64,000 nucleotides of DNA from Siphonodentalium dalli. Taxonomy: Eukaryota; Mollusca; Scaphopoda; Gadilida; Siphonodentaliidae. Within the stretch, counting starts at the first letter, position 1. Every line of letters begins with the position of its first letter. The notes under the pieces were generated by a model, which made no database searches, was not told the origin of the DNA, and saw nothing but the letters and a program-made list of their open reading frames with translations. Position numbers and translations under genes: made by a program. The stretch spans positions 19,347,739 through 19,411,738 of the forward strand of contig CP136062.1 in NCBI GenBank assembly GCA_032622095.1. The letters are read 5' to 3'. Below are positions 5,940-38,318 of this stretch, piece after piece.

Positions 5940-6337
5940 TTATATTCGGGTATTTAGCGGTAAAACTGTGATCTCTCTGGCAGCGATAGAAGCATTCGTT
6001 GCCATGGGCACGTTGTCGTTGTTGTCACCGTTTTCGGTATTGCTGCCTTCGGACCCATCGTGATCTGACCCTGAGCCGTCATTATTCTCGTCCTTGTCAT
6101 TGTTTCGTGGCTTTTTGCGGGGATCGGGAATAAGATCGACAATCAGGAGAAAAGTAAAGACGAAGCTGAAGCTTCCGATTGTTAAAGCAAGGCCCATAAC
6201 CTGCGCAGACTTCCTGTCGTCTGACGCGGTGGTCGCTTTCTTGGCTACGTATTTCTCCATGGTGATGTTGACGTATGTCGGTGGTGGTCCGGTTGTGGTT
6301 GTCGGTTCAGTCGTAGTCGGTGGTATGTACGGTGGCA
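5940..6337 (-). CDS. Receptor exon 6: Thr/Pro stalk, transmembrane segment, cytoplasmic tail, stop
   Basis: The exon begins after acceptor gtcttaacag in phase 1 and ends at TAA (5942-5940), giving about 131 residues. Residues 1-20 are Thr/Pro rich (PTTTEPTTTTGPPP), a mucin-like stalk. Residues 23-25 (NIT) are a potential N-glycosylation site. Residues 46-66 (VMGLALTIGSFSFVFTFLLIV) form one hydrophobic membrane helix. The stop-transfer PRKKPRN follows, then an Asp/Asn/Ser/Gly-rich tail of about 55 residues (DKDENNDGSGSDHDG). I see no obvious ITAM or tyrosine motif, so any signalling would need other partners. Placed after the signal peptide, CTLD and SRCR exons, this makes a type I single-pass receptor. 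The pyrimidine tract of the acceptor overlaps the edge of a dispersed repeat at 6345-6830. Confidence 0.82.
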
Positions 6338-7101: not shown

Positions 7102-7500
7102 TAAAGGTACTTAATCCGATTAGACGGTCCCCATACCATCAAGATACAACAACAACATTTCTTCAAAATACGCTTTATATGTCAGAATATTGTAACAAAA
7201 TAATGTTATCCACAGTTATTGACTGTCAATTTTGGTATCCAATATTCCAAAACTTGTTATTTATCAACATCTTGTTTAAAAAAGTATGGCCGTAATGGCA
7301 CTAAATTATCAAGAAATGTGACCGTATTGCCACTTGATTTTAGAGTGAGCCATTTTTATCCGCAATTTTGTCCGAGACCCTCCGTTTGACCACGTATTTC
7401 TGGGCCACATATTATTACACGTCTCGAGAAATAAAACAAACTTCAAAAATCGACATCTGATCACTCTGAGCTTACAGAGTTGACTCAACGTCGCACATGA
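7102..7500. repeat. Truncated MITE of the ttaaaggtactcaatccgat family
   Basis: Its left end (tttaaaggtacttaatccgat, then ggtccccat...) and interior (cacttgattttagagt, ctgatcactctgagc) match the intact copy at 62793-63229. The right terminal repeat is missing. Confidence 0.6.
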
Positions 7501-7591
7501 TCCCGATATGATTTACTTGTGACCACGTGACACGGGTATCAATATAGGCATGTGACCACGTGACGCTGGTATCAGTACAGGGTTAGCTCAC

Positions 7592-7744
7592 CTTCGCACA
7601 TGATCCCGATATCATCGGCGTGTGAGCACGTGACACTCGTATTTATTGTCCAGCATCGTGGAGTTGTCTCCACAAAAGATCCCTTCAGAGTTAATACGAC
7701 CCGATCCCGTGGTGTATTCTGTACCATTCAGCATACGGACGAAT
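7592..7744 (-). pseudogene. Receptor exon 5: second half of the SRCR domain, frame disrupted
   Basis: Starting after the acceptor ...cactttaag (AG at 7746-7745) in phase 2, as exon 4 needs, the frame reads FVRMLNGTEYTTGSGRI, then FCGDNSTMLDNKYEC. This matches the SRCR order F.G.GPI...V.C.GNE..L..C. It then runs into a stop (TGA) a few codons later. The domain's expected ending, TCSHADDIGIMCE (compare CSHSEDAGVVC), lies immediately after in a different frame, followed by a good donor, GAAG|GTGAGC (GT at 7591-7590). Read in that second frame the exon ends in phase 1, which is what exon 6 requires. The exon is 153 nt, where 152 or 155 would keep frame. This is either a real inactivating indel, an allele, or a sequencing or assembly error. 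The loop before the CSH motif is also shorter than usual. Confidence 0.75.
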
Positions 7745-8236
7745 CTTAAAGTGATATGAAACACTCTAAATCAAAATATCTAATGTAATACAATTAAATC
7801 TGATCTGTACCATTCAGCATACGGACGAATCTTAAAGTGATATGAAACACTCTAAATCAAAATATCTAATGTAATACAATTAAATCTGATCTGTACCATT
7901 CAGCATACGGACGAATCTTAAAGTGATATGAAACACTCTAAATCAAAATATCTAATGTAATACAATTAAATCTGATCTGTACCATTCAGCATACGGACGA
8001 ATCTTAAAGTGATATGAAACACTCTAAATCAAAATATCTAATGTAATGCAATTAAATCTGATCTGTACCATTCAGCATACGGACGAATCTTAAAGTGATA
8101 TGAAACACTCTAAATCAAAATATCTAATGTAATACAATTAAATCTGATCTGTACCATTCAGCATACGGACGAATCTTAAAGTGATATGAAACCCTCTAAA
8201 TCAAAATCTCTAATATAATACAATTAAATCTGATTG
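7721..8236. repeat. 86-bp tandem repeat, six copies, carrying a splice acceptor
   Basis: The phrase gtaccattcagcatacgg recurs at exactly 86-bp spacing (7721, 7807, 7893, 7979, 8065, 8151), with only a few differences and a slightly diverged last copy. On the minus strand each unit holds the end of the intron (cactttaag) plus the first ~27 bases of receptor exon 5. The copy nearest the exon is the functional junction. Confidence 0.92.
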
Positions 8237-8445: not shown

Positions 8446-10053
8446 ACAGACATGACAATTGGAACTTATTCCCTATTCCTTATTCCTTATTTTCAAAAAT
8501 GTCCTTTTCGACCGATTTGACGGCATGGTTGGGTGGCCCGCCCCAAATACCGCCTAGAAACACTCCGATCCCCCTCCCATCACCCCCGGGGGGTGCCACC
8601 CCGAGGACGTGAAAATGGGGTATGGACCATTTTCGAGAACGGTAAGGATTTCGACCGATTTGACGGCATGGGTGGGTGGCCCGCCCCAAATACCACCTAG
8701 AAACACCCCCACCCCCACCCATCACCCCCGGAGGGTGCCACCCCGAGGGGGTGAAAATGGGGTATGGACCATTTTCGAGAACGGTACGGATTTCGACCGA
8801 TTTGACGGCATGGGTGGGTGGCCCGCCCCAAATACCACCTAGAAACACCCCCACCCCCACCCATCACCCCCGGAGGGTGCCACCCGAGGGGGTGAAAATG
8901 AGGTATGGACCATTTTCGAGAACGGTAAGGATTTCGACCGATTTGACGGCATGGGTGGGTGGCCCGCCCCAAATACCACCTAGAAAGACCCCCATCCCCC
9001 ACCATCACCCCCGGAGGGTGCCACCCCGAAGGGGTGAAAATGGGGTATGGACCATTTTCGAGAACGGTAAGGGTGATGGGTGGGGGTGTTTCTAGGTAGT
9101 ATTTGGGGCGGGCCACCCACCCATGCCGTCAAATCGGTCGAAATCCTTACCGTTCTCGAAAATGGTCCATACCCCATTTTCACCCCCTCGGGTGGCACCC
9201 TCCGGGGGTGATGGGTGGGGGTGTTTCTAGGTGGTATTTGGGGCGGGCCACCCACCCATGCCGTCAAATCGGTCGAAATCCTTACCGTTCTCGAAAATGG
9301 TCCATACCCCATTTTCACCCCCACGGGGTAGCACCCTCCGGGGGTGATGGGTGGGGGTGGGGGTGTTTCTAGGTGGTATTTGGGGCGGGCCACCCACCCA
9401 TGCCGTTAAATCGGTCGAAATCCTTACCGTTCTCGAAAATGGTCCATACCCTATTTTCACCCCCTCGGGGTGGCACCCTCCGGGGGTGATGGGTGGGGGT
9501 GGGGGTGTTTCTAGGTAGTATTTGGGGCGGGCCACCCACCCATGCCGTCAAATCGGTCGAAATCCTTACCGTTCTCGAAAATGGTCCATACCCCATTTTC
9601 ACCTCCTCGGGGTGGCACCCTCCGGGGGTGATGGGTGGGGGTGGGGGTGGGGGTGTTTCTAGGTGGTATTTGGGGCGGGCCACCCACCCATGCCGTCAAA
9701 TCGGTCGAAATCCCTACCGTTCTCGAAAATGGTCCATACCCCATTTTCACCCCGTCGGGGTGGCACCCTCCGGGGGTGATGGGTGGGGGTGGGGTGTTTC
9801 TAGGTGGTATTTGGGGCGGGCCACCCACCCATGCCGTCAAATCGGTCGAAATTCTTACCGTTCTCGAAAATGGTCCATACCCCATTTCACCCCCTCGGGG
9901 TGGCACCCCCCGGGGGTGATGGGTGGGGGGTCGGGGTGTTTCTAGGCGGTATTTGGGGCGGGCCACCCAACCATGCCGTCAAATCGGTCGAAAAGGACAT
10001 TTTTGAAAATAAGGAATAAGGAATAGGGAATAAGTTCCAATTGTCATGTCTGT
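8446..10053. mobile_element. Large foldback DNA transposon with long tandem-structured arms
   Basis: The ends are inverted repeats (ACAGACATGACAATTGG left, its complement right) flanked by an exact 9-bp direct repeat, caaatacta, at 8437-8445 and 10054-10062. The inner ~60 bp beside each end (gaacttattccctattcc, ttattttcaaaaatgtcc) also mirror each other. The arms are built of ~142-bp units (cgaccgatttgacggcatgg ... accattttcgagaacg): four units in one orientation, then about six reversed, with the switch near 9066. Long TIRs with a 9-bp duplication resemble Mutator-like elements. No transposase is present. The open frames seen inside are shadows of the repeat. Confidence 0.82.
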
Positions 10054-20601: not shown

Positions 20602-20767
20602 CTCAGTCCAAGTATATTGCACACGCCCTCTAACCCGTCGGTGAAGTTGTGTGGTCCGACGTCACAAACAGAACCCCATCGATTGTCTCGATAGACGTCC
20701 ACTCGCCCCAGTAAAGTGTTATTCAGCCAGTATGTTCCATCTAGTATCGCTACGTGTCCTGTTTCAG
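20602..20767 (-). CDS. Receptor exon 4: first half of an SRCR domain
   Basis: The acceptor is tgtttcttacag (AG at 20769-20768), and the preferred donor is CTGAG|GTATAA (GT at 20601-20600). The exon starts in phase 1, matching exon 3, and ends in phase 2. It encodes the first half of a scavenger receptor cysteine-rich domain: VAILDG, then GRVDVYRDNRWGSVCD (the G.VEV...WG.VCD signature), and GVCNILGLR (the VCRQLGF signature). Class A SRCR domains are classically split over two exons, and the second half is found at 7.59-7.74 kb. A second possible donor at 20555-20554 (TTTAGG|GTAGGT) would give phase 0 but adds residues that do not look like SRCR sequence. Such domains act outside the cell in pathogen or protein binding; the role here is inferred only from family. 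Confidence 0.86.
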
Positions 20768-20814
20768 CTGTAAGAAACATGTGATAATAGAATAATTTTA
20801 AAGACATTTATGTA

Positions 20815-21150
20815 CATGTTCGGGTGCGTGAAACTGATAAGTTAGTAATCAGGCACTATGTCAATTGGAGGAATGCAACATTCTACTAACACCGCCGAAA
20901 ATCTTAAGCAAATTGACCGTACCTCTCCATAGAAAACATTGTCTGAACTGCGTTCAAATGTAAATATTTACTTCCCGATTCGGGACGCTTCTATCGGCAA
21001 TAAACTAATGAAAACGATTTCACCATCGAGAGTCACTGCATTTAATTAATAATTAGAATGATGTGTGTGTTGTCAATTTAGATATACTATTGTAAAAATA
21101 ACTCCTTTGAACAAGATTATTTTCCATTTCTATATTTGATCACCCTACCG
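20815..21150. repeat. Dispersed repeat, single arm of the 19.4-kb hairpin family
   Basis: Landmarks are gtgaaactgataagttagta, tccatagaaaacattgtctg, gggacgcttct and gaacaagattattttcc. A close copy is at 59822-60170. Confidence 0.75.
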
Positions 21151-22320
21151 GAGTGTTTCACATCACTTAAATCGTAGATTGTGCATAGCACCAGGTCCAG
21201 GTAACAGGCAAGCCTATATAACCCCGGACTCATCAACAGAACATAACAAAACATTACATTAGTTGACCAACGCAAAAGTGCAAACACCGACACTCAGGTG
21301 ATACATAGGCTTGTCTGTCTATGTCATCTGAAAAGGGGCGTTTCAGATGGTGTTGGGGGATATGAGCAGTAAAGGTGGACTCGAAGATAAAGATGTCACA
21401 TTAAGTCATATGACACGACGTATTTAGAATGAACTCATATTCTCATATTGCATATAGTGTTGGATATTAAATATTCGTGGACTATCTTACAAATGTCACC
21501 TTATGACAAATTATTGCTCGAAAATATTTATTTATAACTAGGTCAAAGGCGTCTGAGCAGACAGGGAGACTGACGACACGATTTCTTCGATATATTTCGC
21601 TTGTTTGAGATAGGATATCCCGACTTCGATTCGTTTAATGTCGCCGAGTTATTTGTCAAATGAAAGGAAATTTTATTGCCAATAAGACATTCCCGATGAT
21701 ATTTTGACTGCAATTCTCGATTTCTAGAATTTAGTAGGGTTGTTATAGTTGTTGTGGTTTTAGCCAAGATCGATCATTGGAACCTTTATACTGGTATAGT
21801 ATATATTGGTATTTTATTAATTGCCCCCAGGGTCCTGTGGTTTACTGTATAAAGTTGTACTTTGATTTATTCGTTATCTACATTCACAGACTTCGAGAGC
21901 CCCACGCATGTGTTCATGTCCGTCATCCGCACTTCCAGACAGCCCTGGCGGCATCCGTGAATTTTCAAATTGAACTGTTATATTTGGTTGATAAATAACA
22001 GGTTTTGGCCAATTGTGTACTATAGTTGACTGGTTAGCATTATTTGTTGGGCAATAAATCGATTCTGAAAACAGCATTTAAAAAACACTTTAAGCTCAAC
22101 TAGAGATGGGGCCTGTCCCATATGGGACTGAGGTATACCCCCGTATTCAACATGTTATTTGAATGTAGTAGCCATTACTGTATATTGGGCACTGAAGTTA
22201 TGTGAACAGGTAACACTAAATCCCATAAGCCCTAACACTAATCTTGAACCTCTTAACCCTTAATCCCTTAATCAAACTATTGACTGAAAAATGTAGGAAT
22301 AAAATTATGCATGTTGCGAA
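21150..22320. other. No gene seen
   Basis: This is intronic A/T-rich sequence. The stretch near 21970-22075 resembles interior parts of the ttaaaggtactcaatcc MITE family (gttgactggttagcatta). No supported coding. Confidence 0.4.
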
Positions 22321-25497: not shown

Positions 25498-25917
25498 TCT
25501 TGTATATCACATGGAAAAAAAACTAAAGTTTTATGCCTTTTTAACAACATCAGCTCTGTGGAGAACACACAAACTATATACAAGTCTTGTGTTGGCTCAG
25601 ACGCTTCAACACTATACGTCAGTACTGCGCTACGCGCGCAACGAAATATAGTCCCTTTTAGTTATTTCTTTATTTGACGTCTATTGGGTTATTTATTGGT
25701 AACATTTGTCAATACTATGATTTTAATAAAAATAAATAATCGGTTTTCAATAGTAATTCACAGAATGGTACGGAATCAAAATTACATCACGCGCGCAGGT
25801 ATACAATGAAAGTGATTACCGCTTGGACTATTTGCTATTAGCCACTAGTGACAGATACCACAATATGTAATGAATTTTCCAGTGATATTATATGGGTTTC
25901 ATGTGATATATATCTTT

Positions 25918-28437
25918 ATGTTCATTGTGATTTAAATATTTCCTATTAAAGATGGCATATCTCTTCCGATTATCGTTATGTTCATTGTGATTTGAATATT
26001 TCCTATTAAAGATGGTCTATCTCTTCCGATTATAGTTATGTTCATTGTGATTTAAATATTTCCTATTAAAGATGGCATATCTCTTCCGATTATCGTTATG
26101 TTCATTGTGATTTGAATATTTCCTATTACAGATGGTCTATCTCTCCCGATTATAGTTATGTTCATTGTGATTTGAATATTTCCTATTAAAGAGGGCATAT
26201 CTCTTCCGATTATAATTATGTTCATTGTGATTTGAATATTTCATATTAAAGATGGTCTATCTCTTCCGATTATAGTTATGTTCATTGTGATTTGAATATT
26301 TCCTATTAAAGATGGCATATCTCTTCCGATTATCGTTATGTTCATTGTGATTTGAATATTTCCTATTACAGATGGTCTATCTCTTCCGATTATCGTTATG
26401 TTCATTGTGATTTGAATATTTCCTATTAAAGAGGGCATATCTCTTCCGATTATAATTATGTTCATTGTGATTTGAATATTTCATATTAAAGATGGCCTAT
26501 CTCTTCCGATTGTCGTTATGTTCATTGTGATTTGAATATGTGCATTTAAAGATGGTCTATCTTTTCCGATTGTCGTTATGTTCATTGTGATTTGAATATA
26601 TCTTATTAAAGATGGCCTATCTCTTCCGATTATCATTATGTTCATTGTGATTTGGATATTTCCTATTAAAGACGGCCTATCTCTTCCGATTATCGTTATG
26701 TTCATTGTTATTTGGATATTTCCTATTAAAAATGGCCTATCTCTTCCGATTATCATTATGTTCATTGTGATTTGAATATGTGCATTTAAAGATGGCCTAT
26801 CTCATCCGATTATCATTATGTTCATTGTGATTTGGATATTTCCTATTAAAGATGGCATATCTCTTCCGATTATAATTATGTTCATTCTGATTTGAATATT
26901 TCCTATTAAAGATGGCCTATCTCTTCCGATTGTCGTTATGTTCATTGTGATTTGAATATGTGCATTTAAAGATGGTCTATCTCTTCCGATTATCATTATG
27001 TTCATTGTGATTTGAATATGTGCATTTAAAGATGGTCTATCTCTTCCGATTATCGTTATGTTCATTGTGATTTGAATATGTGCATTTAAAGATGGTCTAT
27101 CTCTTCCGATTATCGTTATGTTCATTGTGATTTGAATATTTCCTATTAAAGATAGCCTATCTCTTCCGATTATCGTTATGTTCATTGTGATTTGAATATA
27201 TCTTATTAAAGATGGCCTATCTCTTCCGATTATCGTTATGTTCATTGTGATTTGAATATATCTTATTAAAGATGGCCTATCTCTTCCGATTATCGTTATG
27301 TTCATTGTGATTTGAATATTTCCTATTAAAGATAGCCTATCTCTTCCGATTGTCGTTATGTTCATTGTGATTTGAATATTTCCTCTTAAAGATGGTCTAT
27401 CTCTTCCGATTATCGTTATGTTCATTGTGATTTGAATATTTCCTATTACAGATGGTCTATCTCTTCCGATTATCGTTATGTTCATTGTGATTTGAATATT
27501 TCCTATTAAAGATAGCCTATCTCTTCCGATTATCGTTATGTTCATTGTGATTTGAATATTTCCTATTAAAGATAGCCTATCTCTTCCGATTATCGTTATG
27601 TTAATTGTGATTTGAATATTTCCTATTAAAGATAGCCTATCTCTTCCGATTATCGTTATGTTCATTGTGATTTGAATATTTCCTATTAAAGATAGCCTAT
27701 CTCTTCCGATTATCGTTATGTTCATTGTGATTTGAATATTTCCTATTAAAGATGGCCTCTCTCTTCCGATTATCGTTATGTTCATTGTGATTTGAATATT
27801 TCCTATTACAGATGGTCTATCTCTTCCGATTATCGTTATGTTCATTGTGATTTGAATATTTCCTATTAAAGATGGCCTCTCTCTTCCGATTATCGTTATG
27901 TTCATTGTGATTTGAATATTTCCTATTAAAGATAGCCTATCTCTTCCGATTATCGTTATGTTCATTGTGATTTGAATATTTCCTATTAAAGATGGCCTCT
28001 CTCTTCCGATTATCGTTATGTTCATTGTGATTTGAATATTTTCTATTACAGATGGTCTATCTCTTCCGATTATCGTTATGTTCATTGTGATTTGAATATT
28101 TCCTATTAAAGATGGCCTCTCTCTTCCGATTATCGTTATGTTCATTGTGATTTGAATATTTCCTATTAAAGATAGCCTATCTCTTCCGATTATCGTTATG
28201 TTCATTGTGATTTGAATATTTCCTATTAAAGATAGCCTATCTCTTCCGATTATCGTTATGTTCATTGTGATTTGAATATTTCCTATTAAAGATGGCCTCT
28301 CTCTTCCGATTATCGTTATGTTCATTGTGATTTGAATATTTCCTATTAAAGATGGCCTCTCTCTTCCGATTATCGTTATGTTCATTGTGATTTTAATATT
28401 CCATATTAAAGATGGTATATCTCTTGCGGGTCGTACA
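25918..28437. repeat. 60-bp tandem array, 42 copies
   Basis: The unit is ttatgttcattgtgatttg...cttccgattatcg, exactly 60 bp with no indels over 2.5 kb. Substitution variants cluster at a few sites (gatggcctat, gatagcctat, tgcatttaaag, tcttattaaag). Blocks of neighbouring units repeat in order, so there is higher-order amplification. The minus strand stays open for 555 codons (28469-26802) only because 60 is divisible by three. Confidence 0.95.
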
Positions 28438-32960: not shown

Positions 32961-35900
32961 AATGGGGTGGCCCCGACCCCGTACAACGAATACAAACTAC
33001 CATGGGGTGGCCCCGACGCCGTACAACGAATACAAACTACCGTGGGGCGGCCCCGACCCCGTACAACGAATACAAACTACCGTGGAGCGGCCACGACCCC
33101 GTACAACGAATACAAACAACCGTGGGGCGGCCCCGACCCCGTACAACGAATACAAACTACCGTGGGGCGGCCCCGACCCGTACAACGAATACAAACTACC
33201 GTGGGGCGGCCCCGACCCCGTACAACGAATACAAACTACCGTGGGGGGGGCCCGACCCCGTACAACGAATACAAACTACCGTGGGGGGGGCCGACCCCGT
33301 ACAACGAATACAAACTACCGTGGGGCGGCCCCGACCCCGTACAACGAATACAAACTACCGTGGGGCGGCCCCGACCCCGTACAACGAATACACACTACCG
33401 TGGGGCGGCCCCTACCCCGTACAACCAATACAAACTACCGTGGGGCGGCCCCGACCCCGTACAACGAATACAAACTACCGTGGGGCGGCCCCGACCACAT
33501 ACAACGAATACAAACTACCGTGGGGCGGCCCCGACCCCGTACAACGAATACAAACTACCGTGGGGGGGCGACCCCGTACAACGAATACAAACTACCGTGG
33601 GGCGGCCCCGACCCCGTACAACGAATACAAACTACCGTGGGGCGGCCCCGACCCCGTACAACGAATACAAACTACCGTGGGGCGGCCCCGACCCCGTACA
33701 ACGAATACAAACTACCGTGGAGCGGCCACGACCCCGTATAACGAATACAAACTACCGTGGGGCGGCCCCGACCCCGTACAACGAATACAAACTACCGTGG
33801 GGCGGCCCCGACCACATACAACGAATACAAACTACCGTGGGGCGGCCCCGACCCGTACAACGAATACAAACTACCGTGGAGCGGCCACGACCCCGTACAA
33901 CGAATACAAACTACCGTGTGGTTGCCCCGACCCCGTACAACGAATACAAACTACCGTGGGGCGGCCCCGACCCCGTACAACGCATACAAACTACCGTGGG
34001 GCGGCCCCGACCCCGTACAACGAATACAAACTACCGTGGGGCGGCTCCGACCCCGTACAACGAATACAAACTACCGTGGGGGGGGGGGGGGCCCGACCCC
34101 GTACAACGAATACAAACTACCGTGGGGCGGCCCCGACACCGAACAACGAATACAAACTACCGTGGGGTGGCCACGACCACGTACAACGAATACAAACAAC
34201 CGTGGGGCGGCCCCGACCCCGTACAACGAATACAAACTACCGTGGAGCGGCCGCGACCCCGTACAACGAATACAAACTACCGTGGAGCGGCCCGACCCCG
34301 TACAACGAATACAAACTACCGTGGAGCGGCCCCGACCCCGTACAACGAATACAAACTACCGTGGGGCGGCCCCGACCCGTACAACGAATACAAACTACCG
34401 TGGAGCGGCCACGACCCCGTACAACGAATACAAACTACCGTGGGGCGGCCCCGACCCCGTACAACGAATACAAACTACCGTGGGGCGGCCACGACCCCGT
34501 ACAACGATTACATACTACCGTGGGGCGGCCCTGACCCCGTACAACGAATACAAACTACCGTGTGGTGGCCCCGACCCCGTACAACGAATACAAACTACCG
34601 TGGGGTGGCCCCGACCACGTACAACGAATACAAACTACCGTGGGCGGCCCCGACCCCGTACAACGAATACAAACTACCGTGGGGCGGCCCCGACCCCGTA
34701 CAACGAATACAAACTACCGTGGGGCGGCCCCGACCCCGTACAACGAATACAAACTACCGTGGGGCGGCCCCGACCCCGTACAACGAATACAAACTACCGT
34801 GGGGTGGCCCCGACCCCGTACAACGAATACAAACTACCGTGTGGTGGCCCCGACCCCGTACAACGAATACAAACTACCGTGGGGTGGCCCGACCCCGTAC
34901 AACGAATACAAACTACCGTGGGGTGGCCCCGACCACGTACAACGAATACAAACTACCGTGGGGCGGCCCCGACCCCGTACAACGAATACAAACTACCGTG
35001 GGGTGGCCCGACCCCGTACAACGAATACAAACTACCGTGGGGCGGCCCCGACCCCGTACAACGAATACAAACTACCGTGGGGCGGCCCCGACCCCGTACA
35101 ACGAATACACACTACCGTGGGGTGGCCCCCGACCCCGTATAACGAATACAAACTACCGTGGGGCGGCCCCGACCCCGTACAACGAATACAAACTACCATG
35201 GGGCGGCCCCGACCCCGTACAACGAATACAAACTACCGTGGAGCGGCCACGACCCCGTACAACGAATACAAACTACCGTGGGGCGGCCCCGACCCCGTAC
35301 AACGAATACAAACTACCGTGGAGCGGCCCCGACCACATACAACGTATACAAACAACCGTGGGGCGGCCCCGACACTGTACAACGAATACAAACTACCGTG
35401 GAGCGGCCACGACCCGGTACAACGAATACAAACTACCGTGTGGTGGCCCCGACCCCGTACAACGAATACAAACTACCGTGGGGCGGCCCCGACCCCGTAC
35501 AACGAATACAAACTACCGTGGGGCGGCCCCGACACCGTACAACGAATACAAACTACCGTGGGGCGGCTCCGACCCCATACAACGAATACAAACTACCGTG
35601 GGGGGGGCCGAATCCGTACAACGAATACAAACTACCGTGGGGCGGCCCCGACCCCGAACAACGAATACAAACTACCGTGGGGTGGCCCCGACCACGTACA
35701 ACGAATACAAAATACCGTGGGGCGGCCCCGACTCCGTACAACGAATACAAACTACCGTGGAGCGGCCGCGACCCCGTACAACGAATACAAACTACCGTGG
35801 AGCGGCCCGACCCCGTACAACGAATACAAACTACCGTGGAGCGGCCCCGACCCCGTACAACGAATACAAACTACCGTGGGGCGGCCCCGACCCGTACAAC

Positions 35901-38318
35901 GAATACAAACTACCGTGGAGCGGCCACGACCCCGTACAACGAATACAAACTACCGTGGGGCGGCCCCGCCCCGTACAAAGAATACAAACTACCGTGGGGC
36001 GGCCCCGACCCCGTACAACGAATACAAACTACCGTGGGGCGGCCCCGACCCCGTACAACGAATACAAACTACCGTGTGGTGGCCCCGACCCCGTACAACG
36101 AATACAAACTACCGTGGGGTGGCCCGACCCCGTACAACGAATACAAACTACCGTGGGGTAGCCCCGACCACGTACAACGAATACAAACTACCGTGGGGCG
36201 GCCCCGACCCCGTACAACGAATACAAACTACCGTGGGGTGGCCCGACCCCGTACAACGAATACAAACTACCGTGGGGCGGCCCCGACCCCGTACAACGAA
36301 TACAAACTACCGTGGGGTGGCCCGACCCCGTACAACGAATACAAACTACCGTGGGGCGGCCCCGACCCCGTACAACGAATACAAACTACCGTGGGGTGGC
36401 CCGACCCCGTACAACGAATACAAACTACCGTGGGGCGGCCCCGACCCCGTACAACGAATACAAACTACCGTGGAGCGGCCCCGACCCCGTACAACGAATA
36501 CAAACTACCGTGTGGCGGCCCCGACCCCGTACAACGAATACAAACTACCGTGGGCGGCCCCGACACCGTACAACGAATACAAACTACCGTGGGGTGGCCC
36601 CGACACCGTACAACGAATACAAACTACCGTGGGGTGGCCCCGACCCCGTACAACGAATACAAACTACCGGGGGGCGGCCCCGACCCCGTACAACGAATAC
36701 AAACTACCGTGGGGCGGCCCCGACACCGTACAACGAATACAAACTACCGTGGGGCGGCCCCGACACCGTACAACGAATACAAACTACCGTGGGGCGGCCC
36801 CGACCCCGTACAACCAATACAAACTACCGTGGGGCGGCCCCGACCCCGTACAACGAATACAAACTTCCGTGGGCGGCCCCGATCCCGTACAACGAATACA
36901 AACTACCGTGGGGCGGCCCCGACCCTGTACAACGAATACAAACTACCGTGGGGCGGCCCCGCCCCGTACAACGAATACAAACTACCGTTGGGCGGCCCCG
37001 ACCACGTACAACGAATACAAACTACCGTGGGGCGGCCCCGACCCCGTACAACGAATACAAACTACCATGGGGCGGCCCCGACCCCGTACAACGAATACAA
37101 TCTACCGTGGGGCGGCCCCGACCCCGTACAACCAATACAAACTACCGTGGGGCGGCCCCGACCCCGTACAACCAATACAAACTACCGTGGGGCGGCCCCG
37201 ACCCCGTACAACGAATACAAACTACCGTGGGGCGGCCCCGAACCCGTACAACGAATACAAATTACCGTGGGGCGGCCCCGACCCCGTACAACGAATACAA
37301 ACTACCGTGGGGCGGCCCCGACCCCGTACAACGAATACAAACTACCGTTTGGCGGCCCCGACCCCGTACAACGAATACAAACTACCGTGGGGCGGCCCCG
37401 ACCCCGTACAACGAATACAAACTACCGTGGGGCGGCCCCGACCCCGTACAACGAATACAAACTACCGTTTGGCGGCCCCGACCCCGTACAACGAATACAA
37501 ACTACCGTGGGGCGGCCCCGACCCCGTACAACGAATACATACTACCGTGGGGCGGCCCCGACCCCGTACAACGAATAGAAACTACCGTGGGGCGGCTCCG
37601 ACCCCGTACAACGAATACAAACTACCGTGGGGCGGCCCCGACCCCGTACAACGAATACAAACTACCGTGGGGCGGCCCCGACCCCGTACAACGAATACAA
37701 ACTACCGTGGGCGGCCCCGACCCCGTACAACGAATACAAACTACCGTGGGGCGGCCCCGACCCCGTACAACGAATACATACTACCGTGGGGCGGCCCCGA
37801 CCCCGTACAACGAATAGAAACTACCGTGGGGCGGCTCCGACCCCGTACAACGAATACAAACTACTGTGGGGCGGCCCCGACCCCGTACAACGAATACAAA
37901 CTACCGTGGGGCGGCCCCGACCCCGTACAACGAATACAAACTACCGTGGGGCGGCCCCGACACCGTACAACGAATACAAACTACCGTGGGGCGGCCCCGA
38001 CCCCGTACAACGAATACAAACTACCGTGGGGCGGCCCCGACCCCGTACAACGAATACAAACTACCGTGGGTGGCCCCGACCCCGTACAACGAATACAAAC
38101 TACCGTGGGGGGCCCCGACCCCGTACAACGAATACAAACTACCGTGGGGCGGCCCCGACCCCGTACAACGAATACAAACTACCGTGGGGTGGCCCGACCC
38201 CGTACAACGAATACAAACTACCGTGGGGCGGTCCCGACCACGTACAACGAATACAAACTACCGTGGGGTAGCCCCGACCCCGTACAACGAATACAAACAA
38301 CCGTGGGGCGGCCCCGAT
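32961..38318. repeat. 40-bp minisatellite, about 134 copies over 5.4 kb
   Basis: The consensus is cgtggggcggccccgacccc followed by gtacaacgaatacaaactac. Common variants are ggagcgg, ggtgg, gtggtgg and one-base length changes in the C or G runs. None of the three plus-strand frames of the unit contains a stop. Because 40 leaves remainder 1 on division by three, each frame cycles through all three, giving open stretches of up to 1259 codons. These are repeat artefacts. The array lies in receptor intron 2. Confidence 0.97.

Follow-up and report, generated by a model that had tools for sequence, protein, structure and literature searches.

A minisatellite-like array of an acceptor and exon start in a putative SRCR receptor gene of Siphonodentalium dalli

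Duplicated intron-exon boundaries in other genes

Minisatellite-like duplications of intron-exon boundaries were described in lancelet genes under the name of "mirages" (PMC3087553). According to the parts of that paper used here, the units of BflGb6 consist of an intron end and an exon start and number six and three in two haplotypes, BflGb9 has a donor-side duplicate, and RT-PCR suggests that the globin genes with mirages are spliced regularly. TnC and PGBD5 were added as lancelet cases in the corresponding part of PMC3902484, and Adh3 is also counted among them, for which the original paper (Canestro 2002) is quoted here through papers citing it. Boundary repeats were also reported in human segmental duplications, where they create novel introns (PMC2812944, in the part used). 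Group A SRCR domains are described as having six cysteines and being encoded by two exons (PMC3100851, likewise in part).

The window analysed in this study, a stretch of 64,000 nucleotides (G000:C2:19347739-19411738) within a genome of 2.23 Gb in 9 contigs, carries an array of the same kind. It is like the lancelet mirages, as far as these are described in the sources above, in being a minisatellite of intron end plus exon start, in carrying splice signals in its units and in having donor-side cases too, and the count of six units compares with the six and three of the BflGb6 haplotypes. The unit size is different, 86 bp against 150-160 bp in BflGb6 and 10-72 bp in Adh3. The gene family is also different, and the acceptor here appears to be taken from a transposon end. 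Length instability is typical of lancelet mirages, whereas six units were found in both copies compared here. The human internal tandem repeats (PMC2812944) are likewise repeats of exon-intron boundaries in recently duplicated genes, but there the unit number varies between paralogues and the novel introns are supported by RNA, while here the count is equal. The SRCR domain of the duplicate locus described below matches group A, with six cysteines and a split over two exons. The array is an instance of an already described phenomenon and an uncommon kind of repeat, which an earlier sequence-only reading placed well and partly misread.

The array and its gene

TRF reported a period of 86, 6.0 copies, 98% matches and a score of 1006 for the array, and the same acceptor was present in all six units, so the array noticed in the sequence-only reading is real. 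In 6/6 units CACTTTAAG was followed directly by ATTCGTCCGTATGCTGAATGGTACAG, with a spacing of exactly 86 bp. The intron part of each unit closes with GTTTCATATCACTTTAAG, and ATTCGTCCGTATGCTGAATGGTACAG then begins the putative exon; beyond the last unit ATTCGTCCGTATGCTGAATGGTACAG runs into AATACACCACGGGATCGGG, which is an SRCR-coding stretch. The junction of CACTTTAAG with ATTC was found in 6/6 units, which means that the splice signals are carried by the units as in mirages. The putative first exon bases were 7744, 7830, 7916, 8002, 8088 and 8174. The acceptors had been placed 86 bp apart before, which was correct, but the positions then given (7745 and onwards) are the last intron bases, and the exon starts lie one lower. 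The most distal unit differed from the common form at 3 positions and one other unit at 1, and the remaining four were identical.

Table 1. Features of the locus, in positions of the window
Feature	Position	Strand	Basis
Array of six 86-bp units, each 59-60 nt of intron end and 26-27 nt of exon start	7718..8234	-	TRF and unit comparison
Final 22 nt of MITE-like element, which supply the pyrimidine stretch of the acceptor closest to the exon and recur in the units	7746..7767	-	
Full-length copy of MITE-like element, present on the coding strand as its reverse complement and stopping 29 nt upstream of exon A	20797..21171	-	
Exon A, coding for the first SRCR half (inferred donor)	20602..20767	-	
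Exon B, coding for the second SRCR half, 153 nt long, with an 8-bp deletion against the duplicate (161 nt) that causes a frameshift	7592..7744	-	
Exon B donor GTGAGC, then decayed copies of the exon B 3' end	7463..7591	-	
Last exon, with the Thr/Pro stalk, a segment hydrophobic by eye, the tail and the stop	5940..6337	-	

By translation, exon A ends in phase 2 and the split codon is completed by exon B. The two halves of the SRCR domain, about 12.9 kb apart in the window, would thus join in phase, which is congruent with the two-exon structure of group A. The joined halves of the duplicate scored 44.3 bits with PF00530, and six Cys were counted in its SRCR translation, the number belonging to group A. 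The reading of the duplicate continues past the Thr/Pro stalk and the hydrophobic segment (by eye) to the stop in the last exon. The window copy read with the normal acceptor ends in ...LTRR and a stop owing to the 8-bp deletion. Because this deletion shifts the frame, the window copy is probably a pseudogene or a broken allele, and an intact copy exists in the duplicate. The frameshift, the duplicate and the transposon end within the acceptor had all been overlooked in the sequence-only reading.

The window also contained a 40-bp minisatellite of about 134 copies (32963-38317) and a 60-bp minisatellite of about 42 copies (25911-28425), the latter being found in the duplicate too. Two long reading frames on the minus strand (17707-15815 and 56489-54444) have the look of LINE-type reverse transcriptase by eye, and the former sits in the intron between exons A and B. 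An exon at 31117-30809 was suspected by eye to be lectin-like from a motif, and a Pfam search of this exon matched no family.

Copies, paralogues and the transposon end

A DNA search with window positions 7590-7850, in which 6 candidate places were scored, found the array units at two places only, the window locus and G000:C2:19145770-19146382, about 210 kb away. The second place has six units and an intact exon B of 161 nt. The main aligned pieces between the window and the duplicate were 98-99.6% identical over more than 25 kb in total, and there was a further copy of the window segment 41.3-42.7 kb with 98% identity. The two arrays differed at 2/516 positions and the flanking introns at 13/1254 and 57/5881 (about 1%). 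The window carried an insertion of 1.6 kb (8449-10053) that the duplicate lacks. It is built from 142-bp repeats running in either direction, its ends are inverted, and a short direct repeat (AAATACTAAC) flanks it. From the sequence, the second place may be a segmental duplicate or an unmerged haplotype, since both are compatible with it.

Two older paralogues at C2:56.158 and 56.459 Mb showed 81% and 79% protein identity over exon B, and have one acceptor of this kind without an array. Downstream of the start of exon B they contained 8 and 7 donor-like sites GTGAG(C/T), the true donor counted, the last at 728 nt, and several of these sit in degenerate copies of the exon B 3' end. On this side, all that the window shows is the donor plus a decayed remnant. 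We rejected these donor-side repeats as a coding extension, as read-through hits a stop before the second donor. Judged by these comparisons, both edges of one exon are amplified, each in a different paralogue lineage. Because the 56-Mb paralogues lack the array, it would have arisen after the split from them, and because six units are common to both copies, it would predate their separation. So the array is probably younger than the one event and older than the other.

Sequence of a MITE-like element lies within the acceptor (Table 1). Its end motif GTGTTTCAYRYCACTTTAA occurred 20,819 times in the genome (10,941 + 9,878), and the reversed control 0 times. Among 14 loci fetched around the motif, 13 shared a body of up to about 375 bp which stops at CACTTTAA, some with only the last 160-225 bp. 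This is a short high-copy element with constant ends, as is proper to a MITE-like element. A 5' end fitting TTAA(A)GA(C/T)AT was found in 5/14 fetched loci, the TTAA at the 3' end belongs to the search motif itself, and no long inverted repeat was seen in the element. The copy at locus L032 was identical to the 22 intron bases that precede the final G in the acceptor; its match to 19 of them, the motif bases, is by selection, as this locus was fetched through the motif search. When the intron part of the array unit was compared with the MITE end, 0/300 shuffles scored as high or higher; without its last 21 nt, 183/300 shuffles did, so that the remaining part has no likeness to the MITE end. 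The whole unit was also considered as a dispersed repeat and rejected, because the units were present only at the window locus and the duplicate and the dispersed part is the terminal 22 nt or so.

By this comparison, part of the array acceptor is the end of a MITE-like element, which is the least expected detail of the locus. In the paralogue, exon B is preceded by a nearly full-length MITE-like copy of opposite orientation, which ends one base ahead of it. Our best guess is that two opposite insertions at one acceptor might be due to a shared TTAA target in CTTTAAG/ATTC (the slash marks the boundary). We further speculate, with more doubt than confidence, that TTAA-flanked MITE ends could serve as ready-made 3' splice sites, and that opposite insertions remade the acceptor of the same exon in two paralogue lineages, after which the boundary became six-fold in one and the donor end seven- to eight-fold in the other.

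The frequency of boundary arrays was estimated from 80 other exons, 60 hand-chosen among 150 SRCR matches listed, many of them closely related, and 20 among 135 kinase matches listed. TRF arrays overlapping both the coding match and its flank were found in 2/80 exons. One (L085, G000:C2:20785967-20786842, array 575-876) is an SRCR exon with an overlap of only 2 nt. Its donor stands where a 25-bp array begins, and 5 of about 12 units contain a donor-like GTACGT. The other (L113, G000:C9:73010857-73011720, array 1-361) has about 13 units of 28 bp that extend up to where a PAS-kinase-like exon starts, and is ambiguous because homology to PDB 3dls sets in no earlier than the last array codons, possibly a pyrimidine tract. 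The exact MITE end motif was found in 0/80 of these loci and MITE sequence in 2/80, both well away from the coding match. The earlier claim that such a boundary is rare is partly right, given these counts and the name that the phenomenon already has in lancelets. Separately, at least 87 full-length single-frame kinase matches of near-equal score, often 2,359 or 2,889 bp apart, stood in tandem at G000:C2:149826753-150592734. Searches with PF14830 (molluscan haemocyanin) and PF01353 (GFP) found no match, a result that does not imply absence of these genes.

Splicing of the repeated acceptor

We consider it likely that the array is a mirage of an SRCR-transmembrane receptor gene, a minisatellite which would have come from tandem duplication across the intron-exon boundary, with the extra acceptor copies as bystanders and splicing probably undisturbed. 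Six exact units, an intact duplicate with the same array, paralogues without it, the exon start favoured by most SRCR domains and the parallel of the lancelet globins all point to this reading. In exon definition, donor proximity and exon content favour the last acceptor. Splicing would most likely use the exon-proximal acceptor at 7744, the only one to lead into the exon body, at a distance of 153-161 nt from the donor.

Exon B might instead begin at 7718 (…ggtacag/AATACACC) with a longer exon A, and the array would then be purely intronic and merely abut the exon. The CAG at 7718 is frame-compatible in the window and in the paralogue, and Pfam (PF00530) gave nearly equal scores, 44.3 bits for start 7744 and 43.1 bits for start 7718, a gap of only 1.2 bits. 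The two starts were compared by alignment to SRCR domains read in a single frame, of which 60 fetched loci yielded 58 distinct ones. Start 7744 was better in 48/58, with a gap-free linker in the example shown, and start 7718 in 4/58, with a tie in 6/58. By eye, the donor that the longer exon A would need in this phase, GTTAAT, is also the weaker one. The start at 7718 is therefore unlikely, and from the alignments the exon likely starts at 7744, which upholds the sequence-only reading that the acceptor and the first 27 or so bases of the SRCR exon lie inside the array. The array reaches the acceptor under either start. An assembly effect, either in the array or in one of its two places, through an unmerged haplotype or a collapsed or expanded repeat, is very improbable. 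Identity between the two places is 98-99% across more than 25 kb and also in the segment at 41.3-42.7 kb, and heterozygosity in some invertebrates reaches this level. However, the copies are set apart by the 1.6-kb insertion, other indels, the 8-bp deletion and unit variants, and two alleles would still be two readings of one six-unit array. The assembly artefact named beforehand as a way to overturn the finding is not borne out, as six units at the second place argue against a local error.

The boundary mirage remains our preferred reading, and the upstream acceptors bear on what it does to the transcript. By translation, any of the five leads in both copies to one truncated reading, ...GLRFVRMLNGTDQI and a stop, which ends NGTDQI. 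They reach an in-frame TAA as the 12th codon after the split codon at any unit number. It had been proposed that the insertion would be out of frame because 86 is not divisible by three, which is irrelevant when the same TAA follows from every upstream acceptor. Because each leads to the same stop, the unit number is unable to switch frames, and a frame-based switch was rejected. The proposed variable switch is also unsupported, with six units in both copies though the flanking introns differ by about 1%. Occasional use of an upstream acceptor would give the truncated reading, which would probably be removed by nonsense-mediated decay. It could be supposed that the array tunes receptor dose, the upstream acceptors competing and diverting some transcripts to this decay-prone form, as all six acceptors share their local sequence across the unit and the upstream ones have one early stop in common. 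We hold this to be quite unlikely, since both copies have six units, the frame of the window copy is shifted in any case, and lancelet mirages are reported without splicing disturbance in the parts used of PMC3087553 and PMC3902484.

Acceptors were scored with a home-made matrix from 51 distinct putative SRCR acceptors, which were chosen by rule for pyrimidine content from 60 loci, so the scores are partly circular. For the array acceptor, five units gave a score of 2.2 and the distal one 1.0. Of the 51 putative SRCR acceptors, 94% exceed 2.2, a value that falls slightly short of the 90th percentile among 2,835 minus-strand AGs of the window. Elsewhere exon A scored 6.7, the last exon 1.5 and exon B of the paralogue 4.4. 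Four other AGs per common unit scored 2.6-5.2, and as the array acceptor is weak, use of another AG may be possible. The local acceptor score does not discriminate which site is used.

Few such cases are published, and the locus is a clean further one, in which sister paralogues have arrays at the acceptor side and at the donor side of the same exon. Six locally identical acceptors, one of them with a real exon, make a natural test of donor proximity and exon content against the splice site itself. The transposon end within the acceptor ties insertion to splice-site turnover, and if our speculation is true, splice sites of this genome would turn over recurrently by way of MITE capture together with boundary repeats.
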